Below are positions 8,446-43,425 of a DNA stretch of 64,000 bases, piece after piece. Origin of the DNA: Thermovibrio sp. GTDB taxonomy: Bacteria; Aquificota; Aquificia; Desulfurobacteriales; Desulfurobacteriaceae. The translations under genes and the position numbers were made by a program. Position 1 is the stretch's first letter, and every line of letters begins with the position of its first letter. Where the stretch lies: positions 1 to 64,000 of the forward strand of contig WFYG01000032.1 in assembly GCA_015490195.1 (NCBI GenBank), given 5' to 3'. Below the pieces are notes generated by a model. It worked only from the letters and a program-made list of their open reading frames with translations. It was not told the origin of the DNA and did not search any database.

Positions 8446-9238
8446 TTTAGGCCTTCTGGCTGGAGGGGGAGAGCTCCCCCTTGAACTCCTCAAGTCGGCC
8501 ACTAAAAAGGGAAAAAGAGTAACAACGTTCGCTATTGAGGGAATAACCGACAGGCGAGTTGAGGAGCTCTCAGAGAGGGTTATCTGGATAAAACCGCTAA
8601 AACTTGGAAAGTTCCTTAAAGAACTGAAAAAGAGCAGCGTTAAAGAGATAGTTGTTCTTGGAAAAGTTGAACACAAAGAAGCCTTGAAGCTCAGGAACTT
8701 AGACCTTACGGCAGTTAAGATACTGGCAGGTCTGAGAGATTTCAAACCGGAGACCCTGATTAAGGGAGTCTTCAGAGAGATTGAGAAAGCAGGGATTAAG
8801 GTAATCTCTCCTGAAGAGTATCTGAAACACCTGTTAATCCCCCCCGGAACGGTACTAGGTACAAGTCCAGATGAAGAGACCCTGAGGGACATGCAGTTCG
8901 GAATGGAGATTGCCAGGAAGATAGCCGCAATGGACATAGGACAGACAGTAGTTGTAAAGAAGGGAACGGTTGTAGCCGTTGAAGGGGTGGAGGGAACGGA
9001 CAGATGTATAGAGAGAGGAGCAGAGCTCTCCTCTGGAGGATTCGTAGTATGTAAAGCGGCAAGACCTAATCAGGACATGAAAATAGACGTTCCAACCGTT
9101 GGAGAGAAAACAGTAGAACTCGTTAAGAGTTTAGGTGGAAAAGGTATAGCTGTAGAGGGAAACAGAACATATATTATTACTCCGGATAAAATAGAGGAGC
9201 TCTGCCGAAGGCAGAAACTCCCATTTTTAGCCCTATAA
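8432..9238 (+). CDS. lpxI: UDP-2,3-diacylglucosamine pyrophosphatase LpxI
   Basis: Lipid A pathway enzyme hydrolysing UDP-2,3-diacylglucosamine to lipid X, the LpxI alternative to LpxH. The 268-residue protein shows SLGLLAGGGELPLELLKSA at the N-terminus and, in the C-terminal catalytic domain, VVVKKGTVVAVEGVEGTD and VCKAARPNQDMKIDVPTVG, all DUF1009/LpxI features. It overlaps nusB, so it is the last gene of the yceD-lpxI run. It shows that the organism makes LPS. Confidence 0.93.
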   Translation: MPESSLGLLAGGGELPLELLKSATKKGKRVTTFAIEGITDRRVEELSERVIWIKPLKLGKFLKELKKSSVKEIVVLGKVEHKEALKLRNLDLTAVKILAGLRDFKPETLIKGVFREIEKAGIKVISPEEYLKHLLIPPGTVLGTSPDEETLRDMQFGMEIARKIAAMDIGQTVVVKKGTVVAVEGVEGTDRCIERGAELSSGGFVVCKAARPNQDMKIDVPTVGEKTVELVKSLGGKGIAVEGNRTYIITPDKIEELCRRQKLPFLAL

Positions 9239-13500: not shown

Positions 13501-14139
13501 ACGCTGGTCTCCGTATCTGGAGCAACGGCAAGAATGACAAAAGACCACTTCAGGGTTTACGACCTGATATTCAGGAGGTTTATGGCGTCTCAGATGGTAC
13601 CTGTAGAGGTTAAGAAAGTGGAAGTTGAGCTGAAACTTCTTCCTGAAGAGCTAACTACAGAAGAGGAGTTTATAACGACGATCGTTAAAGACGGCTGGAA
13701 CCTGATCTGGCCCCTTGAAACGGAGGAGCTCCCATTTGAGCCAAAAGAGGGAGAGAGCTACTACTTTGAAGTTGAGTCTGTTACAAGGAGAACAGTTCCT
13801 AAAGTATTTCCCTACACGCAGGGAGAGCTCGTTGAGGAAATGAGAAAAAGAGGAATCGGAAGGCCTTCAACCTACGCAAAGATAGTTCAGACCCTCCTTG
13901 ACAGGTATTACGTTGTAGAAAGGGGTAGGTTCCTCTATCCTACAAAGCTGGGAATAGAGGTTTACAATTACCTATCACAGAACTTCCCTGAATATACCTC
14001 CGAAGAGTTCACCAGAAAACTGGAAAAGCTGATGGATATGGTAGAAAGAGGTGAAGCAGACTACCAGAAGATAATAAAAGAGCTAAAACCGGTTTTGAAA
14101 TTCGCGAAAATTGACCCAAAACAGGTTGTAGGGGAGTAA
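10555..14139 (+). CDS. rgy: Reverse gyrase
   Basis: Introduces positive supercoils; the hallmark enzyme of hyperthermophiles and extreme thermophiles. The 1194-residue single chain has an N-terminal zinc finger (CPNC at 10-13, CEKC), a helicase-like half with Walker A APTGVGKTT (about 103-111) and a VDDVDSLL Walker B, and a topoisomerase IA half from about residue 615 (LVIVESPNKARTIANFF, DPDTEGEKIGWDV). A second zinc finger lies at about 694-708 and the active-site Tyr927 in GFITYHRTDST. Both halves are intact. The start ATG 10555 follows GAGGTGGAA; the upstream in-frame ATG at 10477 would overlap the divergent dehydrogenase. Confidence 0.97.
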   Translation: MKIAEFHRMCPNCGRIISDERLKKGLPCEKCLSEEIEYSERVEICKALSERDSLKRFEKICRLDEFVEDYTRFFKEKTGFSPWSLQIMWAKRVALKKSFTMIAPTGVGKTTWGLVTSAYLKGKVYILVPTKLLVLQTVERLKKLTDKKIVAYTGKKKEKEEIAGGNYDILVTTTNFLYRNFEIIPKPFNFVFVDDVDSLLKSAKNVDKVIELLGFTEKDVELAMRVIDLKAKLAKQGENPDRKLIERVRKYEKFLEKRRKEIENVLVVSSATSQPRSKRVKLFRELLGFEVGKSATALRNVEDVLIYTDKDFIEETVKLIKEYGKGVFVFVSADRGKEFVDVVVDKLNSSGIPAVSYEDFTPENQKKFVKGELWAAVGISSYRNPLARGIDLPQAVRYAVFIGVPKMEFSAKLSLAPVKLYGILLVLREIFPEEEQPKVISYISYLKRYLTLKEEILDRYPKIKEKLEEIKEFLEKHLNDPEFLEKIKQSETVLLKEEEGELYLVVGDAAGYIQASGRTSRMFAGGLTKGVSLMFVDDLKALNSLRKRVLIFLEDINFKVLNRDRGRELAERFGFELIKEKDLKKIFEVVDKDRKRVKEILEGKISTETKSLVTTALVIVESPNKARTIANFFGRPVRRRVNDVDAYEINTGNKLLLLTASKGHVFDITVRDGIWGVKEERGRFIPVYDTIKYCTSCNEQTTEPYCTKCEGRPDVDKITVVEALRELGLEIDEVYIASDPDTEGEKIGWDVGTVVKPYQMKMKRMEFHEVTKWAFMEALENPRDVDENLVKAQIVRRVADRWVGFSLSQHLWKVFKKNWLSAGRVQTPVLGWVIERYRESKEKVGVITVETAAGKFSFKVENVKRLKKIAADKLKLKVLKVEKVEKNPRPPFNTGELLKEASDRLGLSAERVMEIAQDLFESGFITYHRTDSTRVSTAGMGVAKEYISERFGAEFVKLRPWGEGGAHECIRPTRPLDVDALRTLVSVSGATARMTKDHFRVYDLIFRRFMASQMVPVEVKKVEVELKLLPEELTTEEEFITTIVKDGWNLIWPLETEELPFEPKEGESYYFEVESVTRRTVPKVFPYTQGELVEEMRKRGIGRPSTYAKIVQTLLDRYYVVERGRFLYPTKLGIEVYNYLSQNFPEYTSEEFTRKLEKLMDMVERGEADYQKIIKELKPVLKFAKIDPKQVVGE

Positions 14140-14144
14140 CGGTT

Positions 14145-14164
14145 GACGGCCTGTAACGGCCGTC
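14145..14164 (+). terminator. Hairpin between convergent reverse gyrase and truB
   Basis: Perfect 7-base GC-rich stem GACGGCC/GGCCGTC (14145-14151 and 14158-14164) with a 6-base loop, followed on the plus strand by TTTAAC. It sits 5 bases after the reverse gyrase stop and touches the truB stop, so it could act on both transcripts. The T-tract is short. Confidence 0.55.
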
Positions 14165-14165
14165 T

Positions 14166-15038
14166 TTAACTTACTGAGATAACCTTTTCCGGCTTTAAAA
14201 CTTCACCGTTTGACCTGCCGACTCCCAGGAATTCTCCCCTTAAAGAGAGAACGGAGTAAAGACCCGGTGGAAGAGGTTTAGGTATCAGAGCACCATTTTT
14301 GAAGAGTTTTTCCTCTCTCTCCAAGAGCTCCACAACCGGAAAACCTAAAACCTCATAGGGCGGTTTTAGGAAAGGTTCAACACCTCTTTCCTTCAGCACA
14401 TCTAAAGGAACCGATTCGTCTTCACAGATGTTTCCCACACATACCCTGCGGAGCTCCTCAACAACAGCACTACAGCCTAAAGCCTCCCCGATATCGTGAA
14501 CTAAAGACCTGATGTAGGTACCTGAAGAACAGTGAACCAAAAGTTCAAAAGTAGGGGAAGAGAAAGAGAGAAGCTTCAGCGAATAGACGGTAACTTTTCG
14601 GGGAGGGAGCTCCACCTTTTTCCCCTCTCTTGCAAGCTGATAAGCTCTCTTTCCTTTAACCCTGATGGCAGAGTAGGGAGGAGGATACTGGGTGATCTCA
14701 CCGGTAAAACGGGGTAGAACTAAAAGGAATTCCCCTTCTGAAACCTCGCGACACTCAACAGAGGAGAGCTTCCCGTCAACATCATAAGTAGGAGAATAAA
14801 GACCAAACCTTCCCTTAACCCTGTAAATCTTATCCCTCTGCAGAAGGTAATTAGAGAGGCGGGTAGCCTTTCCCACAGCCAGAATAAGGACTCCTGTAGC
14901 AAGAGGGTCAAGGGTCCCTGTATGTCCCACCTTCTCCCTCTTCCCCAAGAGTCGCCTGACTTTAGAAACGACGTCGTGTGAAGTTAAACCTTTAGGTTTA
15001 TCAACTACGATAAAACCGGAGCTTCTACTTCTCACCAT
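14166..15038 (-). CDS. truB: tRNA pseudouridine-55 synthase TruB
   Basis: Converts U55 of tRNA to pseudouridine. The 290-residue protein has GFIVVDKPKGLTSHDVVSKV and the catalytic Asp in VGHTGTLDPLATGVLILAVG, then RVKGKRAYQLAREGK and HCSSGTYIRSLVHDIGEALG, with a C-terminal extension of PUA type. The start overlaps the end of the upstream secretin gene by 14 bases, so it is the last cistron of the secretion operon. Confidence 0.96.
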   Translation of the reverse strand: MVRSRSSGFIVVDKPKGLTSHDVVSKVRRLLGKREKVGHTGTLDPLATGVLILAVGKATRLSNYLLQRDKIYRVKGRFGLYSPTYDVDGKLSSVECREVSEGEFLLVLPRFTGEITQYPPPYSAIRVKGKRAYQLAREGKKVELPPRKVTVYSLKLLSFSSPTFELLVHCSSGTYIRSLVHDIGEALGCSAVVEELRRVCVGNICEDESVPLDVLKERGVEPFLKPPYEVLGFPVVELLEREEKLFKNGALIPKPLPPGLYSVLSLRGEFLGVGRSNGEVLKPEKVISVS

Positions 15039-16977
15039 TTGAGTTCACAATAAAAGGAGTTATAAATACAATCATTTCCTGTTTAGATACTGTAGTCTGA
15101 GAATTCTTAAACAGCCAGCCGAGAAGAGGAATCCTTGAAAGAACAGGCACACCAGAAACAGATCTATTCTTATCTTTTTCGTAAATACCGCCAATAACAA
15201 TAGTATCACCGTTATGAACAAGAACCTTTGACTTAACATTTCTTGTGTTAATAGCAGGCTCACCGTTACCTGTAATGGCAACGTAGTCGTAGTTTGGAGA
15301 ATCTTTGTGAAGCTCAAGGTCAAGAAGAATATTATTGTCTGAAGTTATGTGAGGTTTCACCTTAAGAATTAGAGAAGCCTTTTTAAAGTTAATACTGTAA
15401 GTAGTTGCACCACCGGCTGCTACAGTCGCCTCCCTGTAAGGTATCTCAATTCCCTGCTCAATAGTGGCTTCCTGATTGTCAAGAGTCAGGACTTTAGGAG
15501 AGGAAATAACCTGAGCTTCTCCGTCTATTTCAAGAGCTTTCAGAGCAAGTTCTACCCTCAAAGTCTGGGAACTGTTCAAAATACCAAGAGCAAGGGTTGA
15601 GTTCATAACAGGTATATTGGAGTAGTTCATGTAAGTATCTGGACTTATAAGAGGAGAGTAGTTATTGGTGTTAAACCCGTAACTACCCGTTACGTAGCTG
15701 GAAGAGGCCGGATTACCAAAGTGATTATAGCCGCTGATATACCACGTAAAGCCCAGATCCTTTTCAGCCTTAGAACTGAGCTGGACAATTTTTGCTTTAA
15801 CCAGAACCTGCTTCCTTGGTTTATCAATACTTTTTATTAAACGGAGAATTTCACTGTAGTGAGTTGGAGTTACTTTTAACAGGAGAGAGTTGGTCTGCTT
15901 GTTTACAGTTATCTTCTCCCTCTCCGACTTACCAAGCAATTTAGTTATGTCTTTAACAAGGTCAGCTGCGTTAACGTAGTTAATCGGAACAATGTAGTCG
16001 TTAACGGGCTCCAGCTTCTGTTCCTTAAGGATCTTAGATTTTGGAAGTATCCGTATGTAGTCGGGAGTTTCTATGTACGTAAGAGAAAGCGGTTCCAGAA
16101 CAGCCTTAAGAGCCTCTTTCCAGGGAACGGGATTCTTGAAGTCTACGTTAACTTTTCCTCTAACTTCAGGATCAAAGACCACATTAACACCAGCAACAGA
16201 TGCTATAGCTCTAACTACAGACTTTACGTCGGCATTTGTAAAGTGGAGAGCAACCTTCGGCCCCTGAACACTTACAGAAGAGGCAGAAGACCGATTTCTG
16301 TTTTTAGAAGCCATCAATTTAACAAAGATCTGGTTCCCTTTGGGTAAAACTTCAACGGCCAGAACAGAAGGAGAAAGAGAGAGAGTTATAACTCCCCCTT
16401 TTTTCGTGTTTGATAAACGGGCTGAGGTAACATAAAAGGCAGATATGCGCTGCCTTGAAGGTTCCAATCTAATGCCGGGAATCTGAAGGATTAACCTGTT
16501 ACCCACCTTTTCAAAAGTGGGTTTAACAGGAACAGGAAAGTCAATAACTATCTCCTCTCCAGAGAGGGTTTTCAGGGAGTTAAACTCAGGATTGACAAAG
16601 CCTCCTTCCAGAATCTTTAGTTTTACTGCGCTTCCTCTCCGGGAGAGCTTTAAAACACCAGGTTTGTAGAGGTCAACAACCAACTTTGAACTCTTATCTT
16701 CCGGCAAGAGTTCTGCCTGTTTAACGAAATTCCCCCGCTTTCCAACAAGATACGGACGTTCTATCTGACAGTTGTTAAGATCTACAACTATCTCCTTACC
16801 CTTTTTAACTACAGGGGATACAGAACAGTCTCCGCTCTTAACAAGAGTTATTTCCAGATAGCTCCGATTTATATCACCTGCCGACTTGGAAGAGTAGAGA
16901 AAGTCAATACTTTTCAACTGCCCTGAATAGGAAGTTGACGAGAGTAGAAGAACCAGAGGCAACGCCTTCTTCAACAT
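15025..16977 (-). CDS. pilQ: Type IV pilus secretin PilQ
   Basis: Outer-membrane secretin pore. A signal peptide (LKKALPLVLLLSSTSYSG) is followed by AMIN-like beta domains (about 30-230), a secretin N-domain (LHFTNADVKSVVRAIASVAG, about 250), a repeat region (VNYVNAADL-like), and the C-terminal secretin domain with SSPKVLTLDNQEATIEQG and the PVLSRIPLLGWLFKN signature near residue 610. At 650 residues it has normal PilQ size. ATG follows GGAGGGATAAAATA. It ends the pilM-N-O-P-Q order and is the second secretin in the operon; gspD lies 6 kb upstream. Confidence 0.93.
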   Translation of the reverse strand: MLKKALPLVLLLSSTSYSGQLKSIDFLYSSKSAGDINRSYLEITLVKSGDCSVSPVVKKGKEIVVDLNNCQIERPYLVGKRGNFVKQAELLPEDKSSKLVVDLYKPGVLKLSRRGSAVKLKILEGGFVNPEFNSLKTLSGEEIVIDFPVPVKPTFEKVGNRLILQIPGIRLEPSRQRISAFYVTSARLSNTKKGGVITLSLSPSVLAVEVLPKGNQIFVKLMASKNRNRSSASSVSVQGPKVALHFTNADVKSVVRAIASVAGVNVVFDPEVRGKVNVDFKNPVPWKEALKAVLEPLSLTYIETPDYIRILPKSKILKEQKLEPVNDYIVPINYVNAADLVKDITKLLGKSEREKITVNKQTNSLLLKVTPTHYSEILRLIKSIDKPRKQVLVKAKIVQLSSKAEKDLGFTWYISGYNHFGNPASSSYVTGSYGFNTNNYSPLISPDTYMNYSNIPVMNSTLALGILNSSQTLRVELALKALEIDGEAQVISSPKVLTLDNQEATIEQGIEIPYREATVAAGGATTYSINFKKASLILKVKPHITSDNNILLDLELHKDSPNYDYVAITGNGEPAINTRNVKSKVLVHNGDTIVIGGIYEKDKNRSVSGVPVLSRIPLLGWLFKNSQTTVSKQEMIVFITPFIVNSNGEK

Positions 16978-16981
16978 TATT

Positions 16982-17404
16982 TTATCCCTCCAGATTCACT
17001 TTTACTGTTCTGTAAACTTTTCTGAGTTTGCCGTTTTTGTAAACAAAGCGAACAATAACAACTTTTTCAGGAGTTATCTTTACTATCTTTTCTGCAAGAC
17101 TTACAGCATCACCGGCTTTAAGCATGTAGGTCTCTCCTGTTTCAGGGTCAAGAACCACCAGTATGTATCCGTTCTTACCACTTATTACCCCCTGAATACT
17201 CAGCTGGTCTAACGGCTTAGGAATTGCCGGTCTAAACAGGCGAACCTCTTTCTTCTCTCTGGCAAGCTGTTCTTTGAGTTTTCTTAATTTCTCAAGTCTT
17301 TTTTCCCGCAGTTTAATCGGATTAACAAAGGGATCCACCCACTCTGCTCCCAAGGCAGAAACACTAAAAAACCAGAAAAGGAGGAAAAGTGTTAACAACC
17401 TCAT
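16982..17404 (-). CDS. pilP: Pilus assembly lipoprotein-like protein PilP
   Basis: A 140-residue protein with a signal peptide (RLLTLFLLFWFFSVSALGA) followed by WVDPFVNP and a charged helix, then a beta domain with LSIQGVISGKNGYILVVLDPETG, which matches the PilP/GspC HR-domain pattern connecting inner-membrane PilNO to the PilQ secretin. No lipobox Cys is present, unlike many PilP proteins. It lies between pilO and pilQ with gaps of 2 and 4 bases. Confidence 0.85.
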   Translation of the reverse strand: MRLLTLFLLFWFFSVSALGAEWVDPFVNPIKLREKRLEKLRKLKEQLAREKKEVRLFRPAIPKPLDQLSIQGVISGKNGYILVVLDPETGETYMLKAGDAVSLAEKIVKITPEKVVIVRFVYKNGKLRKVYRTVKVNLEG

Positions 17405-17406
17405 TT

Positions 17407-18009
17407 CTACTCCGTTAAAGTAAAGGCTTTTATCTTTAAGTCGGCTTCTATAGTAGCTCCCTTAGGAGCTTCCAATTTCCGAATAGTCGTCTTCGACACA
17501 GGATTCAAGGACTTAATTTTTATATCGCCAAAGTTAATAATTCTGTTGGCCTTTGACAGACGTTCACACCACTTAATAAATCCTGTATAAGTTCCAAACA
17601 GCTCAACCTTGTACGGATATTCCACGTAGTACTTATGTCTTTTTACGGCTTCCCTCTTTATGAGTTTTATGGACATGCCACTGTCTGCGTCTGTTATAGA
17701 CCTGAGAATCTGACTGACTTCCTCCCTACCTGTAGGTAGTTTACTTTCAATTTCCTGAATTTGCTTTCGTAGCTCTTCAAGTTCTCTAGAGAGCAGAGAT
17801 CTTCTCTTCTCAACTACCCTGAGTCTATTAACAGTAAGTGTAAGAGTTTCAATTTCTCTCCTCTTTCTGTTTAGTTCTTCTTTAAGAGGAGCTATTTTGA
17901 AGTAGTAAATAAGAGCAAAAAGAATGACTCCAAACAGAACAATGGCAATCCACTTTTGCCAGCGAGGTGTATGTATCCAGCGTTCATAAAGACTAACGAG
18001 CTGTTCCAT
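17407..18009 (-). CDS. pilO: Type IV pilus inner-membrane protein PilO
   Basis: A 200-residue bitopic protein: a short cytoplasmic N-terminus, one TM helix (WIAIVLFGVILFALIYYF, about 20-37), a coiled coil (about 40-95), and a small periplasmic ferredoxin-like domain with YYVEYPYKVELFGTYTGFIKW. It pairs with PilN as alignment-complex subunits. The start overlaps pilN by 17 bases. Confidence 0.88.
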   Translation of the reverse strand: MEQLVSLYERWIHTPRWQKWIAIVLFGVILFALIYYFKIAPLKEELNRKRREIETLTLTVNRLRVVEKRRSLLSRELEELRKQIQEIESKLPTGREEVSQILRSITDADSGMSIKLIKREAVKRHKYYVEYPYKVELFGTYTGFIKWCERLSKANRIINFGDIKIKSLNPVSKTTIRKLEAPKGATIEADLKIKAFTLTE

Positions 18010-18556
18010 TCTTCAGCTCCACACCAAAATTAAATTTATAATAGACAACTCTAAAGTTGAGCTTGCGGTTTTCGTAGACTTTCCTTTCTGTTTCACGGAA
18101 GAGAACCTTTCCAAGTTTCTCCTCAGAGGTTTTAAGAAACTCCGGGAAACTCTTTATTCTAAGCGTTCCACCTTTAACAGTCAGTTGTCTTCCAGAGTAA
18201 GTTAGCGAGTCAAGCCACATATTTTTAACGTTTTCTGGATTGGCAAAGAAGTATAGGAACTGAGGAACTTTTCTGTTTTTATCAAGCATTGAAACTATTT
18301 CAAGTTTCTTCTGAAGCTCTTCCCTTGTGGCTATGAGTTCTTTCTCGCTCTGTTGAATCTGGTGAAGCTGGCGTATCTCCCTTTTCAAGGTTTGTATTTT
18401 ACTTTGAGCTACCTTTAACTGGTAGGTTGCTGTGGAGTAACAGAAGTAGCTGAAAAAGAAGACAACTACAAGGACAACAAAGAGGAACATTAAATCGGGT
18501 TTTACGTACTTTGAGTAGACTGACTCTCTGTACTCTGCGAAGTTAAATCTTAGCAT
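17993..18556 (-). CDS. pilN: Type IV pilus inner-membrane protein PilN
   Basis: Bitopic assembly protein of 187 residues with the conserved cytoplasmic N-terminal motif LRFNFAEYRES, which binds PilM in studied systems, a TM helix (LMFLFVVLVVVFFFSYFCY) and a coiled-coil/periplasmic part. ATG at 18554-18556 is chosen over GTG at 18565 because AAGGG is correctly spaced and the N-terminus fits PilN. It overlaps pilM by 14 bases. Confidence 0.87.
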   Translation of the reverse strand: MLRFNFAEYRESVYSKYVKPDLMFLFVVLVVVFFFSYFCYSTATYQLKVAQSKIQTLKREIRQLHQIQQSEKELIATREELQKKLEIVSMLDKNRKVPQFLYFFANPENVKNMWLDSLTYSGRQLTVKGGTLRIKSFPEFLKTSEEKLGKVLFRETERKVYENRKLNFRVVYYKFNFGVELKNGTAR

Positions 18557-31761: not shown

Positions 31762-33642
31762 ATGAAGCAGCTTCTAACCGCCATTTTGACTGTTCTGTTC
31801 CTTATTACACCCACTCTAGCTAAAGAGAAGAACTACGGGGCTGTAATTCTATATGACAGGTGCTCTGTTAAGTTCTTCCCAGATGGAAGGAAAATCTGGA
31901 AGGAAGAGAAGGCAGTAAAGATAACTGGAAAAAGGGGAATTCAGGACTTTGGAGAGATAGTTATTCCCTTTTCAACGGAACACCAGAAGTTAAAGATTCT
32001 CTACGCCTACACAATAACTCCAGATGGAAAGATCCTAAAACCCGGGAAAAGGGCAATAAATACCGTTTACCCGCCGTTTGTTTCAGAGGCCCCAATCTAC
32101 TCAGACCTTAAGTACAGAACAATTTCAATGCCGGGGGTGAGGGTAGGTTCTGTAATCAAATACGCTTACGTGTTGAAAACGGTTAAACCCTACATGAAAA
32201 ACCAGTTCTGGGAAACAAACTATCTGCAGGACGAGTATCCGATTAAGGAGGCCTCCTTTAAGGCGCTAATACCTGAAGGGAAGTACTTTAAATACAAAAC
32301 CTATAACATGAGTGAGAAGGAGTCTGAGCCGTTAGAAAGAAGAGTCGGGAAGTTTGTGGAGCTTTCCTGGATGGTGAAAGACGTTCCGCCGATAGTTAAG
32401 GAGCCGAACATGCCTCCCATGGAGGAGGTTTCAAAGAGAGTTGCAATAACCTCTCTAAAGAGCTGGCAGGAAGTTGCAAAGTGGTATTCAGACCTTGCTA
32501 AAGAGGCCGTTAAGCCAGACAAGTTTGTAAGAGAAATCACCCTAAAAGTTGTTAAAGGCAAAAAGACAGAGGAAGAAAAAATAAGGGCTATCTATAACTT
32601 CGTTGCACAGAACATAAGATACGTTGGAATGGAATTTGGAATAAACGGATATAAACCCCACAGGGCTTCGGAAATTCTCAGAAACAGGTATGGAGACTGC
32701 AAAGACCACGCAACACTGTTGATTGCTATGTTGAAAGTTATAGGCGTTAAGGGATATCCGGTTCTCATTCCGACCCTCAGTAGGCCAAACATGGATCCCG
32801 AAATGCCGATGCCTACGGCCTTTAACCACGAGATAGCGGCAATAAAGTGGAAAGGTAAGTGGTTCTTTATGGACACAACCTCCGACTTTGTTCCCTTTGG
32901 TTATCTGCCTCCAAGCGACCAGGGAAGAAGAGTTCTGATTGTTGACGTTGAGAAGGAGAGAGGGACAGTTGGCAAAACGCCTGTATTTCCTCCAGATGCT
33001 AACGTTGAAGGATTCAGCGGTAAGTTCACTCTTAAGCCGTTTGGAAGCTTAGAAGGTAAGTTTAAGTTTGACTACACAGGAATTTACGGAGTTATAGAGA
33101 GGGCAAGGCTTACGGGAGCTCCCTCCGAACAGATAAAAAGACACGTTGAGGAGCTAGCCGCAAAAGTCTCCCCCGGGTTTGACGTTGAAAGGTATGAGAT
33201 TTCAAACTACAGGAACTTAAACGAGAAAGACGTATGGGTGAAGATTGAGGGAGAGGACAGAAACTACGGGACAATAACTTCCCACTACCTACTTGCAAAG
33301 TTTCCAACTCCAGACTATAGCAGACTCGTCAGTTTAGTTGCGGCAAAGAGCAGGAAGTATCCATACGTTGTTGGCTATAAGATGGAAAAGGTTTCAGATG
33401 TAAAGCTGGAGCTCCCCAAAGGTTATGTCCTATATCTGAAGCCTGAAAACTACAGTTTCAAAAACAGAGTTGGTAGCTTCTCAATAAAGTGGGAAGTTAA
33501 GGGAAGGGAGCTCCACTTCCACTCACAGATGGTTCTCAACAAGAGCGTAATTCCCGTTAACGAGTATCAGGATTTAAGGGAGCTCTTCAACACAATAGTT
33601 AAAACACTGAGAAACCAGATAGTTGTACTGAAAAAGGAGTAA
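31762..33642 (+). CDS. Secreted DUF3857/transglutaminase-like protein
   Basis: A 626-residue exported protein: signal peptide (KQLLTAILTVLFLITPTLA), an N-terminal DUF3857 domain (about 30-230), then a transglutaminase-core domain with the triad Cys in NRYGDCKDHATLLIAML (about 313), His in AFNHEIAAI and Asp in FMDTTSDF. A C-terminal beta-rich region follows. Such proteins may act as proteases or peptidoglycan- or protein-crosslinking enzymes; the substrate is not known. AAAGGAGG precedes the ATG. It lies 18 bases after glmM, which hints at an envelope role. Confidence 0.87.
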   Translation: MKQLLTAILTVLFLITPTLAKEKNYGAVILYDRCSVKFFPDGRKIWKEEKAVKITGKRGIQDFGEIVIPFSTEHQKLKILYAYTITPDGKILKPGKRAINTVYPPFVSEAPIYSDLKYRTISMPGVRVGSVIKYAYVLKTVKPYMKNQFWETNYLQDEYPIKEASFKALIPEGKYFKYKTYNMSEKESEPLERRVGKFVELSWMVKDVPPIVKEPNMPPMEEVSKRVAITSLKSWQEVAKWYSDLAKEAVKPDKFVREITLKVVKGKKTEEEKIRAIYNFVAQNIRYVGMEFGINGYKPHRASEILRNRYGDCKDHATLLIAMLKVIGVKGYPVLIPTLSRPNMDPEMPMPTAFNHEIAAIKWKGKWFFMDTTSDFVPFGYLPPSDQGRRVLIVDVEKERGTVGKTPVFPPDANVEGFSGKFTLKPFGSLEGKFKFDYTGIYGVIERARLTGAPSEQIKRHVEELAAKVSPGFDVERYEISNYRNLNEKDVWVKIEGEDRNYGTITSHYLLAKFPTPDYSRLVSLVAAKSRKYPYVVGYKMEKVSDVKLELPKGYVLYLKPENYSFKNRVGSFSIKWEVKGRELHFHSQMVLNKSVIPVNEYQDLRELFNTIVKTLRNQIVVLKKE

Positions 33643-33645
33643 TAA

Positions 33646-34536
33646 TTGAGCGGGCACCATCACCATCACGTTAGCGGCAGGAACCTGTTTATAACTGTAA
33701 TTCTGAATATCATCATCACACTCTCGCAGATTGTAGGGGGAGTATTTTCAGGCTCCTTAGCACTTCTAAGCGACGCTATGCACAATTTCAGCGACGTTCT
33801 GGCACTTCTGATAGCCTATGTAGCCAACCGACTTGCAGAAAAGCCCAGAACGAAGGAATACACGTTTGGGCTGAAAAGAGCTGAAATATTAGCTGCCCTA
33901 TTTAACTCACTTATTCTTGTAGGCATTGGAATATTCCTGATAGTGGAAGCAGCTCATAAACTATTCCACCCCGAACCAATAGAATCCTCATGGGTAATAT
34001 GGCTTGGAATTCTCAGCATCGTCCTGAACACTGCAAGCGTCCTTCTCATTAAAGAGGACTCTCACGAAAACATAAATATAAAGGCCGCATACCTGCACTT
34101 ACTTACAGACGTAATGACATCTGTAGCTGTAGTAATTGGCGGTATCTTAATGGCATTCTGGAAGGTTTACTGGGTTGACCCACTAATTTCTATACTGATA
34201 GCACTATATCTGATGAAATCTGCCGTCTCTTTAGCAAAAGAATCAGCAACTATCCTGATGCAGTTTGCTCCTCAGAGTGTTGACATAGACAAAATAGTTC
34301 ATTTAATAGAAAGCGAACCAGAAATAGACAACGTTCACCACATTCATATATGGCAGCTTGACGACAAAAACGTATTTTTTGAAGCACATGTTGACTTTAA
34401 AGATGATTTACCTCTATCAAAGTGCATGAAAATCTTAGATAAATTGGAAGAGAAACTGCAAAAATCAGGCATTTCTCACGTAACGCTCCAGTGTGAATAC
34501 CAGAGAAACGATAGCAAGGAGAAAGTAATACCCTAA
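33646..34536 (+). CDS. Cation diffusion facilitator metal/H+ antiporter (CzcD/ZnT type)
   Basis: Inner-membrane exporter of Zn2+, Co2+ or similar ions, 296 residues, six TM helices. Metal site motifs are SLALLSDAMHNFSDVLALL in TM2 and HLLTDVMTSVAVVIGG in TM5, and the cytoplasmic C-terminal domain has DNVHHIHIWQLDD. The N-terminus carries five consecutive His (SGHHHHHVSG), likely a metal-binding tail. Start TTG 33646 follows AAGGAG with a 6-base spacer across the previous stop. The gene lacks any GGAGCTCC and by eye uses more A/T-ending codons than its neighbours, so it could be a later arrival. Confidence 0.93.
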   Translation: MSGHHHHHVSGRNLFITVILNIIITLSQIVGGVFSGSLALLSDAMHNFSDVLALLIAYVANRLAEKPRTKEYTFGLKRAEILAALFNSLILVGIGIFLIVEAAHKLFHPEPIESSWVIWLGILSIVLNTASVLLIKEDSHENINIKAAYLHLLTDVMTSVAVVIGGILMAFWKVYWVDPLISILIALYLMKSAVSLAKESATILMQFAPQSVDIDKIVHLIESEPEIDNVHHIHIWQLDDKNVFFEAHVDFKDDLPLSKCMKILDKLEEKLQKSGISHVTLQCEYQRNDSKEKVIP

Positions 34537-34559: not shown

Positions 34560-34796
34560 TTGGAAGAGATGGACTTTGTTAAGAAGATTGTTGATGAAGT
34601 TGAGCAGATACCGGGAGTTAAAAGGGTTGAGGTCGTTCCCGTATGCGAGATATACATAGACGCCTGTTTAAAAGTGGTTGCAGAGAGCAAAGATATTAAG
34701 AGAACGGTTGCAGACAAAATTATTGAAATAGCCGGAAGTTTTGAAGAGCGGTTAGGACACAGGCCGGAAATCTACTGGGATTTAGAGGTTGAGTAG
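34560..34796 (+). CDS. Conserved-looking small protein of unknown function
   Basis: A 78-residue acidic protein with no recognised domain. It has two predicted helices around DIKRTVADKIIEIAGSFEERLG and the strand-like segment VKRVEVVPVCEIYIDACLKVV with two Cys. The alternating pattern could be a small ferredoxin-like fold. TTG at 34560 has an AGGAGG 8 bases before it, better than the ATG at 34569. Its stop overlaps the tsaD GTG, so it is translated with tsaD. I do not recognise the family. Confidence 0.7.
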   Translation: MEEMDFVKKIVDEVEQIPGVKRVEVVPVCEIYIDACLKVVAESKDIKRTVADKIIEIAGSFEERLGHRPEIYWDLEVE

Positions 34797-35785
34797 TGAT
34801 AGTAGTTGGAATAGATACCTCCTGCGACGATACGTCTGTTGCCGTTTACGACGGGCACGGAAACAGGGTTTTAAGCAACATCGTTTCATCCCAGTATGAG
34901 TTCCACCAACCCTTTGGAGGGGTTGTTCCGGAAGTTGCAGCAAGGAAACATGCGGAGAACATAGACGTTGTATTTGAAGAGGCCCTAAGAGTTGCAGGAA
35001 TCGGTGTAGAGGATATCCGGCTTGTGGCGGTTACCAGAGCTCCCGGCCTACTCCCCGCCCTTTTAGTGGGGCTCACGTTTGGGAAGGGAGTTGCGTTCTG
35101 GAAGGAGATTTCTTTTAAGGGAGTTCATCACATAGAGGCCCATCTGCTCTCTCCGTTCATAGGGAGTGAGCCGGAATACCCGTTTTTAGGGCTGGTTGTA
35201 AGCGGAGGTCACACGCTAATAGTTCTGGCAGAGGAGTTCGGGAAGTACAGAGTAATCGGTAAAACGCTGGATGACGCAGTTGGAGAGGCTTACGACAAGG
35301 TGGCGAAAATGCTGAACCTCGGATATCCGGGAGGGCCCGTAATAGACAGGATTTACAGGGAGTTTGAGGGGGAGTATTTGGAGCTCCCAAAACCCAGGGT
35401 AAAGGGCTTCAACTACAGCTTCAGCGGAATTAAGACGGCAGTAAGAAGGCTGATTGAGAAGGGCTACCCGCCAGAGCAGGTTGCAGCCTCATTTCAGAAG
35501 ACGGCCGTTGAGTATCTGATTGGAAAGCTGAAAAAGGCTCTGAAAGAAACGGGAGTTAAGAGGATTGCCGTTTCTGGAGGAGTTTCTGCAAACAGCCTTC
35601 TGAGGGAGAAGCTGAAAGAGATTGAAGAGCAGGGATACAAGGTTTATCTGCCAAAGATGGAGTTTACGTCAGACAACGGAGCGATGGTAGCCTACGTTGG
35701 ATATAGGCGGTTTCTGTTGGAAGGTGGAGATTCTTTAGAGGTGGGAGCTCTCCCCAGGATGTCTTTAGAGGAGGTGAGCACCTGA
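34796..35785 (+). CDS. tsaD: tRNA N6-threonylcarbamoyladenosine transferase TsaD
   Basis: Catalytic subunit forming t6A at tRNA position 37. The 329-residue ASKHA protein begins VVGIDTSCDDTSVAVYD and has VVPEVAARKHAENID, the metal motif HIEAHLLSPF, LVVSGGHTLIV, AYDKVAKMLNLGYPGGPVID and the C-terminal TSDNGAMVAYVG. GTG start overlaps the upstream stop. Its own TGA is overlapped by the likely CTG start of the next gene. Confidence 0.97.
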   Translation: MIVVGIDTSCDDTSVAVYDGHGNRVLSNIVSSQYEFHQPFGGVVPEVAARKHAENIDVVFEEALRVAGIGVEDIRLVAVTRAPGLLPALLVGLTFGKGVAFWKEISFKGVHHIEAHLLSPFIGSEPEYPFLGLVVSGGHTLIVLAEEFGKYRVIGKTLDDAVGEAYDKVAKMLNLGYPGGPVIDRIYREFEGEYLELPKPRVKGFNYSFSGIKTAVRRLIEKGYPPEQVAASFQKTAVEYLIGKLKKALKETGVKRIAVSGGVSANSLLREKLKEIEEQGYKVYLPKMEFTSDNGAMVAYVGYRRFLLEGGDSLEVGALPRMSLEEVST

Positions 35786-36207
35786 AGGGAAGTTACGGTC
35801 TGGTATTCCGTTTAAAGGAAGACCTAACTGTAAAAGTTAGAAGCGGCAGGGTTTTCAGTCTGCAGAAAGGTGTTTACTGTTACTGTGGCTCTGCGATGGG
35901 AAGCTTTGAAAAGAGAGTTTTAAGACACTTGAAAAGGGAGAAGAAACGCCACTGGCACATTGATTTCATAACAACAGACAGACGGTTTGAACCTGTTGAG
36001 GTGTGGGTATTCAGAGATAAGGAATTTGAATGTAAACTGGCAGAGAGTTTAAAGGGAAACGAGTCGGTTTCAGGTTTTGGAGCAACAGACTGCAGTTGCA
36101 AGAGCCATCTCTTCAGGTTGAAGAGTTTAGAATCTGAAAGGGAAAAGGCGAGAGAACTGGGAGCAGAGATAATAAGTGCAGGAGAGGTGCTTAAAAGATG
36201 GAAGTGA
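35782..36207 (+). CDS. DUF123 family protein (GIY-YIG-related), probable CTG start
   Basis: A 141-residue protein. The N-terminal part GSYGLVFRLKEDLTVKVR, then KGVYCYCGSAMGSFEKRVLRHL, and RHWHIDFITTDRRFEPVEVW are the DUF123 core, a domain related to GIY-YIG nucleases and in archaea often fused to endonuclease III. The conserved start lies 38 codons before the first ATG (35896). No ATG, GTG or TTG is available in frame near it. CTG at 35782-35784 has GGAGGTGA 7 bases ahead and overlaps the tsaD stop as CTGA, so a CTG start is likely. Ends overlapping trpD by 10 bases. Confidence 0.8.
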   Translation: MKGSYGLVFRLKEDLTVKVRSGRVFSLQKGVYCYCGSAMGSFEKRVLRHLKREKKRHWHIDFITTDRRFEPVEVWVFRDKEFECKLAESLKGNESVSGFGATDCSCKSHLFRLKSLESEREKARELGAEIISAGEVLKRWK

Positions 36208-37229
36208 GAAAGGTTCTAAACAGGCTGGTTGAGAAGGAGAATCTGAGTAGAGAGGAGACTTACAGGCTCTTCAGTTCAATTATGGAAGGGGAGCTTACAG
36301 ACGTTCAGATAGCCGGAATTCTTGTAGCCCTAAGGTGTAAAGGGGAAACTGTTGAGGAAATAACAGGGGCAACAGAGGTTCTGAGGGAGAGGAGCAGGAA
36401 GGTTCCCTTAAGCGAAGAGCTGAAAAGGAGGGTTGTTGATACCTGCGGAACTGGAGGTGATTTAAAGGGAACGTTCAACATATCAACAACGGTTGCCTTA
36501 GTCGTAGCCTCTTGCGGAGTTCCCGTTGCAAAGCACGGAAACAGGTCTGTTTCAAGCAGGTGCGGAAGTGCAGATATTTTAGAGAGTTTCGGAGTGAAAA
36601 TAGACCTTGAGCCGGAGCAGGTTGCAAGGTGTATTGAGGAGCTGGGATTCGGTTTCATGTTTGCTCCAAAGTTCCACCCTGCAATGGCTACAGTTGTAAG
36701 ACCGAGGAAAGAGCTTGGGATAAGGACGATTTTCAACGTTCTGGGGCCTATGACAAACCCGGCCGGAGCTGTTCGCCAGCTGATGGGAGTTTACGACGAA
36801 AAGCTCACAGAGAAGCTGGCCGAAGTTCTCCTGAAGCTTGGAACAGAGAGGGCTTTTATCGTTCACGGTAAAGACGGAACAGATGAGATAACGATAAGCG
36901 AGGCAACGAAAATAACGGAGATAAAGGACGGAGAGATAAAGAGTTACATTGTGGCACCTGAGGACTTTGGACTACAGAGAGCTCCCTTCTCAGAAATCAA
37001 GGGGGAAGAGACTTTAGAGGAAAACAGAGAAATTGTAAGGAGGATTCTAACGGGAGAGGAAAAGGGGGCAAAGAGGGACGTTGTGGCTCTGAACGCAGGT
37101 TTTGCCCTCGTTGCAGGTGGAAAGGTTGAAAAGATTGAAGACGGAATAGAAATGGCCGTTAAGGCAATGGAGGAGGGGAGACCCTACGAGCTCCTGTGTA
37201 AACTGGTCAAGTTGACAAACGAGCTGTAG
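36198..37229 (+). CDS. trpD: Anthranilate phosphoribosyltransferase TrpD
   Basis: Second step of tryptophan synthesis. The 343-residue protein has VVDTCGTGGDLKGTFNIST (PRPP loop), AKHGNRSVSSRCGSADILE, FMFAPKFHPAM and GIRTIFNVLGPMTNPAG. No other trp gene is nearby, so the pathway is scattered in this genome. The ATG overlaps the DUF123 gene. Confidence 0.96.
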   Translation: MEVRKVLNRLVEKENLSREETYRLFSSIMEGELTDVQIAGILVALRCKGETVEEITGATEVLRERSRKVPLSEELKRRVVDTCGTGGDLKGTFNISTTVALVVASCGVPVAKHGNRSVSSRCGSADILESFGVKIDLEPEQVARCIEELGFGFMFAPKFHPAMATVVRPRKELGIRTIFNVLGPMTNPAGAVRQLMGVYDEKLTEKLAEVLLKLGTERAFIVHGKDGTDEITISEATKITEIKDGEIKSYIVAPEDFGLQRAPFSEIKGEETLEENREIVRRILTGEEKGAKRDVVALNAGFALVAGGKVEKIEDGIEMAVKAMEEGRPYELLCKLVKLTNEL

Positions 37230-42526: not shown

Positions 42527-42866
42527 GAACAACCTCCTTTTTTATCCGTGAGATGAGTTCCTCAAAGGCGGGAAGGACGTCTGAACGGTAGCGACCTGCA
42601 ACTGCGACAATCATTATGTCGTCTCCAACTTTCAGTTTACCTAAGTTGAGCCACACCTCAACGGCCTCTATCCCCTCTCGGGATTCAATTTCTGAGATTA
42701 ACTGCTTCAGTTTCTCCTCGTCATAAGAAAGCTCCATCCCCAAAACTCTCTCGCCAGAACGGGAACTCCCCCTTACAACCCCATTGTGAACCAGAACCAT
42801 ACCCAGGTTTTCAGGGTTTGAACGCCTCTTTACCCTCTCAACAATCTCATCTAAAGACGGCCTCAT
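42510..42866 (-). CDS. moaE: Molybdopterin synthase catalytic subunit-like protein MoaE
   Basis: A 118-residue MoaE-family protein with GMVLVHNGVVRGSSRSG, VEVWLNLGKLKVGDDIMIVAVAG and RYRSDVLPAFEELISRIKKE. MoaE transfers sulfur from MoaD to precursor Z. It is shorter than E. coli MoaE (about 150 residues), matching short forms found elsewhere. It overlaps mobA by 20 bases and msrB by 17. No moaD is adjacent. Confidence 0.85.
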   Translation of the reverse strand: MRPSLDEIVERVKRRSNPENLGMVLVHNGVVRGSSRSGERVLGMELSYDEEKLKQLISEIESREGIEAVEVWLNLGKLKVGDDIMIVAVAGRYRSDVLPAFEELISRIKKEVVLEKEV

Positions 42867-43425
42867 AGTAGTCCTCCGGTCTGTTTACGTTAATCAGGGA
42901 ATCTTCCCTGTAGTCAAAGGGTCTGTATATGGAAAAGGGAACTTCTCTTGAGTTAAGGAGTGAGTGGAGTTCCCCAAGCCTGTGTCTTCCAGACTTTAAA
43001 AACTTCTCAACTGTTAAGATGTGGTCCTTCAGAAGGAGAGTAAAGAGGGAGTGAGTTCTTCTACTGTCAGAAAGAACAGCAGGGGGAATCTGACGGGAAA
43101 AGTGGAAAAGAACCTCCTTTCTAACAAGAGGAGTGTCTCCCGGAAGTATTAGAACTTTTCTATAAGTGGCCTCTTTAAGAGCTGTGTAGATGCCGCAGAC
43201 CGGAGAGTAGGTGTTAAAGGGTTCTGGAACAACCTTGAGGTTTCTATAACGGCCGATTAAGTGGAAGAAAGAGAGAGGGTTTTTCGTTACCAACAGGACT
43301 TCAGGAAAATCTGTAAGACGGTCAAGAGTGTTCTCTACAAGGAGTTTACCTCTAAAGGGAACAGAGAGTTTGTTTCGGCCGAAGCGGGAGCTCCTCCCGC
43401 CGGCCATAACGGCCACGGTTATCAG
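42847..43425 (-). CDS. mobA: Molybdenum cofactor guanylyltransferase MobA, possible CTG start
   Basis: Attaches GMP to molybdopterin. The 192-residue nucleotidyltransferase has [40 protein letters not shown] and [18 protein letters not shown] at 43414-43416 is 15 bases from GGAGG, too far. CTG at 43423-43425 lies 6 bases after GGAGG and overlaps the moaC/mogA stop as CTGA, giving the family N-terminus [10 protein letters not shown] therefore use the CTG, with GTG 43416 as the alternative. Confidence 0.85.

Follow-up and report, generated by a model that had tools for sequence, protein, structure and literature searches.

Which codon opens the DUF123 gene that follows tsaD? Its first in-frame ATG lies at codon 39 of a conserved reading frame, and the original prediction placed the start at a CTG that overlaps the tsaD stop codon. 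The window, i.e. the whole stretch of DNA analysed here, spans 64 kb from the beginning of contig C32 in a draft genome (G000) of 1.68 Mb in 46 contigs; other G numbers denote the genomes compared with it.

Locus and candidate start codons

At the locus, a cation-efflux gene, a small ORF, tsaD, the DUF123 gene, trpD and an ORF from 37266 follow each other. The latter looks like ftsY when its translation is read. The features relevant to the start are:

34796..35785, + strand: tsaD (tRNA threonylcarbamoyladenosine transferase), TIGR03723 equivalog, 381.9 bits
35770..35777, + strand: Shine-Dalgarno (SD) sequence GGAGGTGA of the DUF123 gene, 8-base complement to the same-genus 16S tail
35782..35784, + strand: CTG, putative start codon of the DUF123 gene, aligned with ATG/TTG of orthologues
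35782..35785, + strand: CTGA stop/start overlap of tsaD and DUF123, suggestive of translational coupling
35782..36207, + strand: DUF123/COG1833 GIY-YIG-type nuclease gene, 141 aa from the CTG, PF01986
35896..35898, + strand: first in-frame ATG of DUF123 (codon 39), rejected as start, anti-SD duplex -2.6 kcal/mol
36198..37229, + strand: trpD, overlapping the DUF123 3' end, TIGR01245, 440.7 bits

The last tsaD codons GAG GAG GTG AGC ACC TGA (35768-35785) contain both the SD sequence and the overlapping CTG. The tsaD stop codon TGA occupies 35783-35785, as expected from the proposed CTGA overlap, and the DUF123 stop codon (36205-36207) is in frame with the CTG. Upstream of the CTG, the DUF123 frame is open for 25 codons as far as a TAG at 35704-35706. 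These 25 codons include no ATG, GTG, TTG, ATA, ATT or ATC. The statement that no in-frame ATG, GTG or TTG lies between the upstream stop (35704) and the ATG at 35896 was confirmed in the sequence. Judged from the DNA, it is very likely that the DUF123 gene starts at CTG 35782.

Coding constraint upstream of the first ATG

The DUF123 protein matches the PF01986 profile with 99.1 bits (cut-off 25). It was compared with 32 orthologues, whose identity to the window protein amounts to 40-88% within the family and to ~32-42% for archaeal and other bacterial sequences. Numbered from the CTG, the residues G3, Y5, Y32, Y34, G36, S37 and A38 are invariant and precede the ATG at 35896. The conserved N-terminus upstream of this ATG, from which the original prediction had set out, is thus borne out by G3 and Y5, and an N-terminus of shorter length was found in none of the 32 sequences. 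The invariant positions of the alignment comprise G3/Y5, Y32/Y34/G36 (GIY and YIG boxes), R45, E83 and C104/C106/H109. An AlphaFold2 model built from the orthologue alignment (mean pLDDT 93.6) predicts beta strands at residues 3-11, 15-18, 24-27 and 30-38, all of them upstream of the ATG.

As judged from substitution patterns, codons 2-38 are under purifying selection. Their dN/dS values between G000 and G002, G005 and G004 are 0.06, 0.18 and 0.21, respectively; in the comparison with G003, where synonymous sites are saturated, pN/pS is ~0.17. The two other frames of the same DNA display no such constraint. Upstream of the CTG, 9 of 12 (G002), 7 of 8 (G003) and 8 of 9 (G005) differences are located at third positions of tsaD codons. 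Downstream of it, 10 of 14 (G002) and 21 of 35 (G003) are located at third positions of DUF123 codons, and G005 has five differences only. This means that the third-position changes switch frame at the CTG, which indicates that the DUF123 frame is translated from this codon or from a position beside it.

A decaying DUF123 pseudogene whose start was lost by mutation would be in agreement with the inefficiency of CTG as a start codon (PMC11497404). It is very improbable in view of the low dN/dS and the invariant residues, which are intact across diverged CTG-bearing species. Slightly less credible still is translation of a 103-aa protein from the ATG at 35896, the first canonical in-frame start, with only incidental conservation upstream: seven invariant residues and four beta strands would be lost, the DNA before the ATG is under amino-acid constraint, and pairing of this ATG with the anti-SD (-2.6 kcal/mol) belongs to the weakest 5% of starts.

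The protein itself probably is a DNA-cutting enzyme, as suggested by its family. Proteins of COG1833 have been predicted to be GIY-YIG nucleases; they carry a His/Cys-rich tail and may take part in base-excision repair (PMC1564403). The DUF123 protein shares with them the Pfam family, the GIY/YIG boxes and the His/Cys-rich C-terminal cluster; it differs in its start codon and in the tsaD-trpD setting, and in nothing else. A Foldseek search of the model against the PDB returned no match at E <= 0.001, with the GIY-YIG protein Slx1 in the top 20 without significance. A phmmer search against the PDB found no relative, an Rfam search no match, and a literature search on DUF123 function nothing useful.

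The start codon in relatives and its history

The CTG with GGAGGT upstream is present in five assemblies of one genus (G000, G001, G002, G003 and G005). An alignment of orthologues had been proposed as a check on the CTG. It revealed ATG (G013, G020) or TTG (G004, a sister species of the same genus, and G006) at exactly this codon. Archaeal orthologues likewise carry ATG or TTG here, and their proteins begin with MKGTY or LKGTY. These starts, the invariance of the N-terminus and the recurrence of the CTG in five assemblies support the original prediction.

A different situation was observed in G008 (L021) and G018 (L017), where the usual DUF123 start codon is a TTA that overlaps the TAA stop of tsaD. 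In G018, no ATG, GTG or TTG was found upstream of the TTA. In both genomes an ATT located 7 nt after GGAGG, at about codon -7, may be the start instead.

The open frame that extends into tsaD over 25 codons and the strong SD inside tsaD would also suit a -1 frameshift shortly before tsaD ends, yielding a TsaD-DUF123 fusion. This is as hard to credit as a start at 35896. Inspection by eye revealed no slippery heptamer in 35707-35785, the DUF123 frame is closed by stops immediately upstream of the ATG in G013 and of the TTG in G004, and several further genomes of the family lack a tsaD-like reading frame in front of DUF123. Least probable of all is that sequencing or assembly turned a TTG or ATG into CTG, as a draft of 46 contigs might suggest; the same CTG in five assemblies that differ elsewhere in tsaD refutes this in effect.

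Accepting the CTG as start codon, its history can be traced. In a tsaD nucleotide tree the five CTG genomes are joined with full support, followed by G004 and then by G006. As simplest history, this points to one TTG-to-CTG change on the branch to the five-assembly clade, i.e. a single T-to-C exchange in the ancestor of the five assemblies. In tsaD, this base occupies the third position of a codon near the stop, so that the exchange may have left the TsaD sequence unchanged. Before DUF123, the SD sequence is GAGGAAGT in G004 vs. GAGGAGGT in all CTG genomes. A stronger SD offsetting a weaker start in the CTG clade would fit, and as a single event this is suggestive only. An argument for selection of the CTG from its conserved C was rejected: among the comparable tsaD codons ending in C, 15 of 34 are conserved to the same degree across four species, and the conservation is therefore not significant. 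By itself, conservation of the CTG is weak evidence of selection.

Ribosome binding at the CTG

The anti-SD sequence was taken from the 16S 3' tail of G004 (L046, same genus), which reads ...GGATCACCTCCTTTT. As claimed originally, GGAGGTGA at 35770-35777 pairs with it over all 8 bases. The 7-base spacing stated along with this match is correct for a distance measured from GGAGG; the last base of GGAGGTGA is separated from the CTG by 4 nt. For comparison, 472 reliable starts were used whose first canonical start codon aligns with that of G013 (332 ATG, 78 TTG and 62 GTG). The duplex at the DUF123 CTG (-18.0 kcal/mol) is stronger than those at all 472 starts, which average ~-9 kcal/mol (median of the 332 ATG ~-9.5), and no duplex of this strength was found at the sampled random in-gene positions. 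The 7 nt from GGAGG to the CTG lie in the common range, which peaks at 4-7 nt among the reliable starts. Part of the motif is due to tsaD, because the same bases encode Glu-Glu-Val of TsaD. A hairpin sequestering the start was rejected (z -1.11); neither G002 nor G005 preserves its AGGU/ACCU stem.

Two candidate adaptations to CUG were also rejected. The initiator tRNA looks ordinary, with the C1-A72 mismatch and the GGG/CCC anticodon stem customary in tRNA-fMet, and so does IF3, which aligns nearly full length with solved IF3 structures. Consequently, IF3 should disfavour the CTG start.

Taking these data together, we infer the following mechanism for DUF123 expression. Ribosomes finishing tsaD would halt at the TGA that overlaps the CTG. 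Either a 30S subunit or the ribosome that terminates would be positioned at the CTG by the strong SD in the last tsaD codons, and tRNA-fMet would pair with this codon despite the first-position mismatch. Translation from CTG 35782 with fMet would yield a protein of 141 aa, M-KGSYGLVF.... The strong SD and the overlap probably offset part of the poor efficiency of CUG. The output of DUF123 would probably be low and tied to tsaD translation; that a low output is tolerable for a nuclease is speculation. We regard the explanation as a whole, comprising CTG start, coupling, strong SD, low output and a single TTG-to-CTG change, as highly probable.

Comparison with known rare start codons

CUG accounts for 0.024% of bacterial start codons, and its output in E. 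coli is ~0.86% of that of AUG (PMC11497404). Of ancestral starts, 2 of 61,358 AUG, 1 of 5,080 GUG and 1 of 2,468 UUG were switched to CUG (PMC5622118). As in the rare CUG-initiated bacterial genes, the CUG of DUF123 would be read by fMet-tRNA. In contrast to them, DUF123 allows ancestral state and switch branch to be shown, along with the recurrence of the codon across five assemblies, and its SD is exceptionally strong and shared with the upstream gene. The starts of infC (AUU/AUC) and Streptomyces sigR (GTC) are repressed by IF3 (PMC5472188). They are non-canonical, too, and sigR is also part of a translationally coupled operon, whereas the CTG of DUF123 is not family-wide but confined to one clade, with ATG/TTG elsewhere. 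Because its relatives use ATG/TTG, a regulatory role is less supported for DUF123 than for infC. The DUF123 CTG can be considered a well-supported, if modest, case of a phenomenon known to be rare, and it is probably functional.

Other non-canonical starts in the genome and the family

A screen for conservation extending 5' of the first canonical start was performed with 1.06 Mb of G000 (63% of the genome) against 1.6 Mb of G013 as single comparator. ORF hits were overlap-filtered against shadow frames. Among ~970 genes evaluated, DUF123 has the only unambiguous CTG start. Further non-canonical starts emerged for infC (ATC), pdxA (ATT), an 876-codon ORF (ATA) and mobA; the orthologue starts of mobA and infC were judged from coordinates or matched patterns. 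In-frame CTGA overlaps were found in 11 genes, ten of which were inspected. Seven of the ten read CTGATG with an ordinary ATG start, and in q7733 a TTG equipped with an SD precedes the overlap at a short distance. DUF123 and mobA remain as candidates for a start at CTGA.

The mobA-like gene is located in the window as follows:

42847..43425, - strand: mobA-like gene, start at CTG (43425-43423) or at ATA in the next codon; GGAGGTGGCCACTGATA motif, comparison with G013

In its start region (43436-43420, minus strand), the gene overlaps with the stop codon of a moaB/mog-like gene. Precisely at the beginning of mobA, GGAGGTGGCCACTGATA or a closely similar sequence recurs in 12 genomes belonging to four genera. 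The CTG is 6 nt and the ATA 9 nt away from GGAGG; both are invariant, and both fit alike as start. Among the His codons of G000, 83% are CAC, and among its Ile codons 44% are ATA. G000, unlike G013, also has a GTG three codons downstream of the CTG, which could serve as well, at an unfavourable distance from the SD.

The pdxA locus is located on C28 of G000 (minus strand, about 17371-18352; L194; orthologues L187-L208). In all 19 genomes whose N-terminus was read (20 loci, seven genera), ATT, ATA or ATC is found at the expected start, and never ATG, GTG or TTG. Mostly, this codon follows a GGAGG-like SD by a few bases. By its sequence, pdxA is a case of a family-wide conserved non-canonical start like infC, and it would join infC and sigR as a gene with a non-ATG/GTG/TTG start throughout the family. 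A literature search on AUU-started pdxA yielded nothing useful. The pdxA start is a stronger lead than the DUF123 CTG and merits its own study.

The 876-codon ORF (q5713; C18 of G000, minus strand, 14035-16663) encodes a signal-peptide-like N-terminus (IRKRAVWLTALLVLL). In G000 as well as in G013, its apparent start is an ATA preceded by CGGAGGGGAGCC.

Two frames conserved across a TGA were observed as well. On C21 of G000 (minus strand, 8873-9215 and upstream), an in-frame TGA is kept in G000 and G013, ELCIGDGFCKIVCPQDAFL[TGA]GINCSS...; the ferredoxin-type protein encoded there is a candidate selenoprotein. On C19 (plus strand, about 33282-34209), conservation of the frame continues past a TGA in G000 as in G013, FFIGVAGG[TGA]QGLDKLSRREIEK, and a GGDEF-type domain comes next. 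Readthrough, Sec or two genes with a TTA/TTG start may be considered here.

Implications

Gene callers normally accept ATG, GTG and TTG only. Therefore, DUF123 would probably lose 38 residues in annotation, and with them its GIY-YIG boxes, or be missed. With TTG present in sister and outgroup alike, it is one of the few CUG switches that can be assigned to a branch. It is conceivable, though rather unlikely, that infC, pdxA, mobA, the 876-codon ORF and DUF123 form a gene set of the Desulfurobacteriaceae under deliberately weak, IF3-sensitive starts, which would mostly overlap the preceding gene and be combined with strong SD sequences. If so, their output would follow the IF3 level and the translation of the upstream gene. 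Together with pdxA, infC, mobA and the ATA-started ORF, DUF123 makes non-canonical starts in this thermophile family worth a systematic look.
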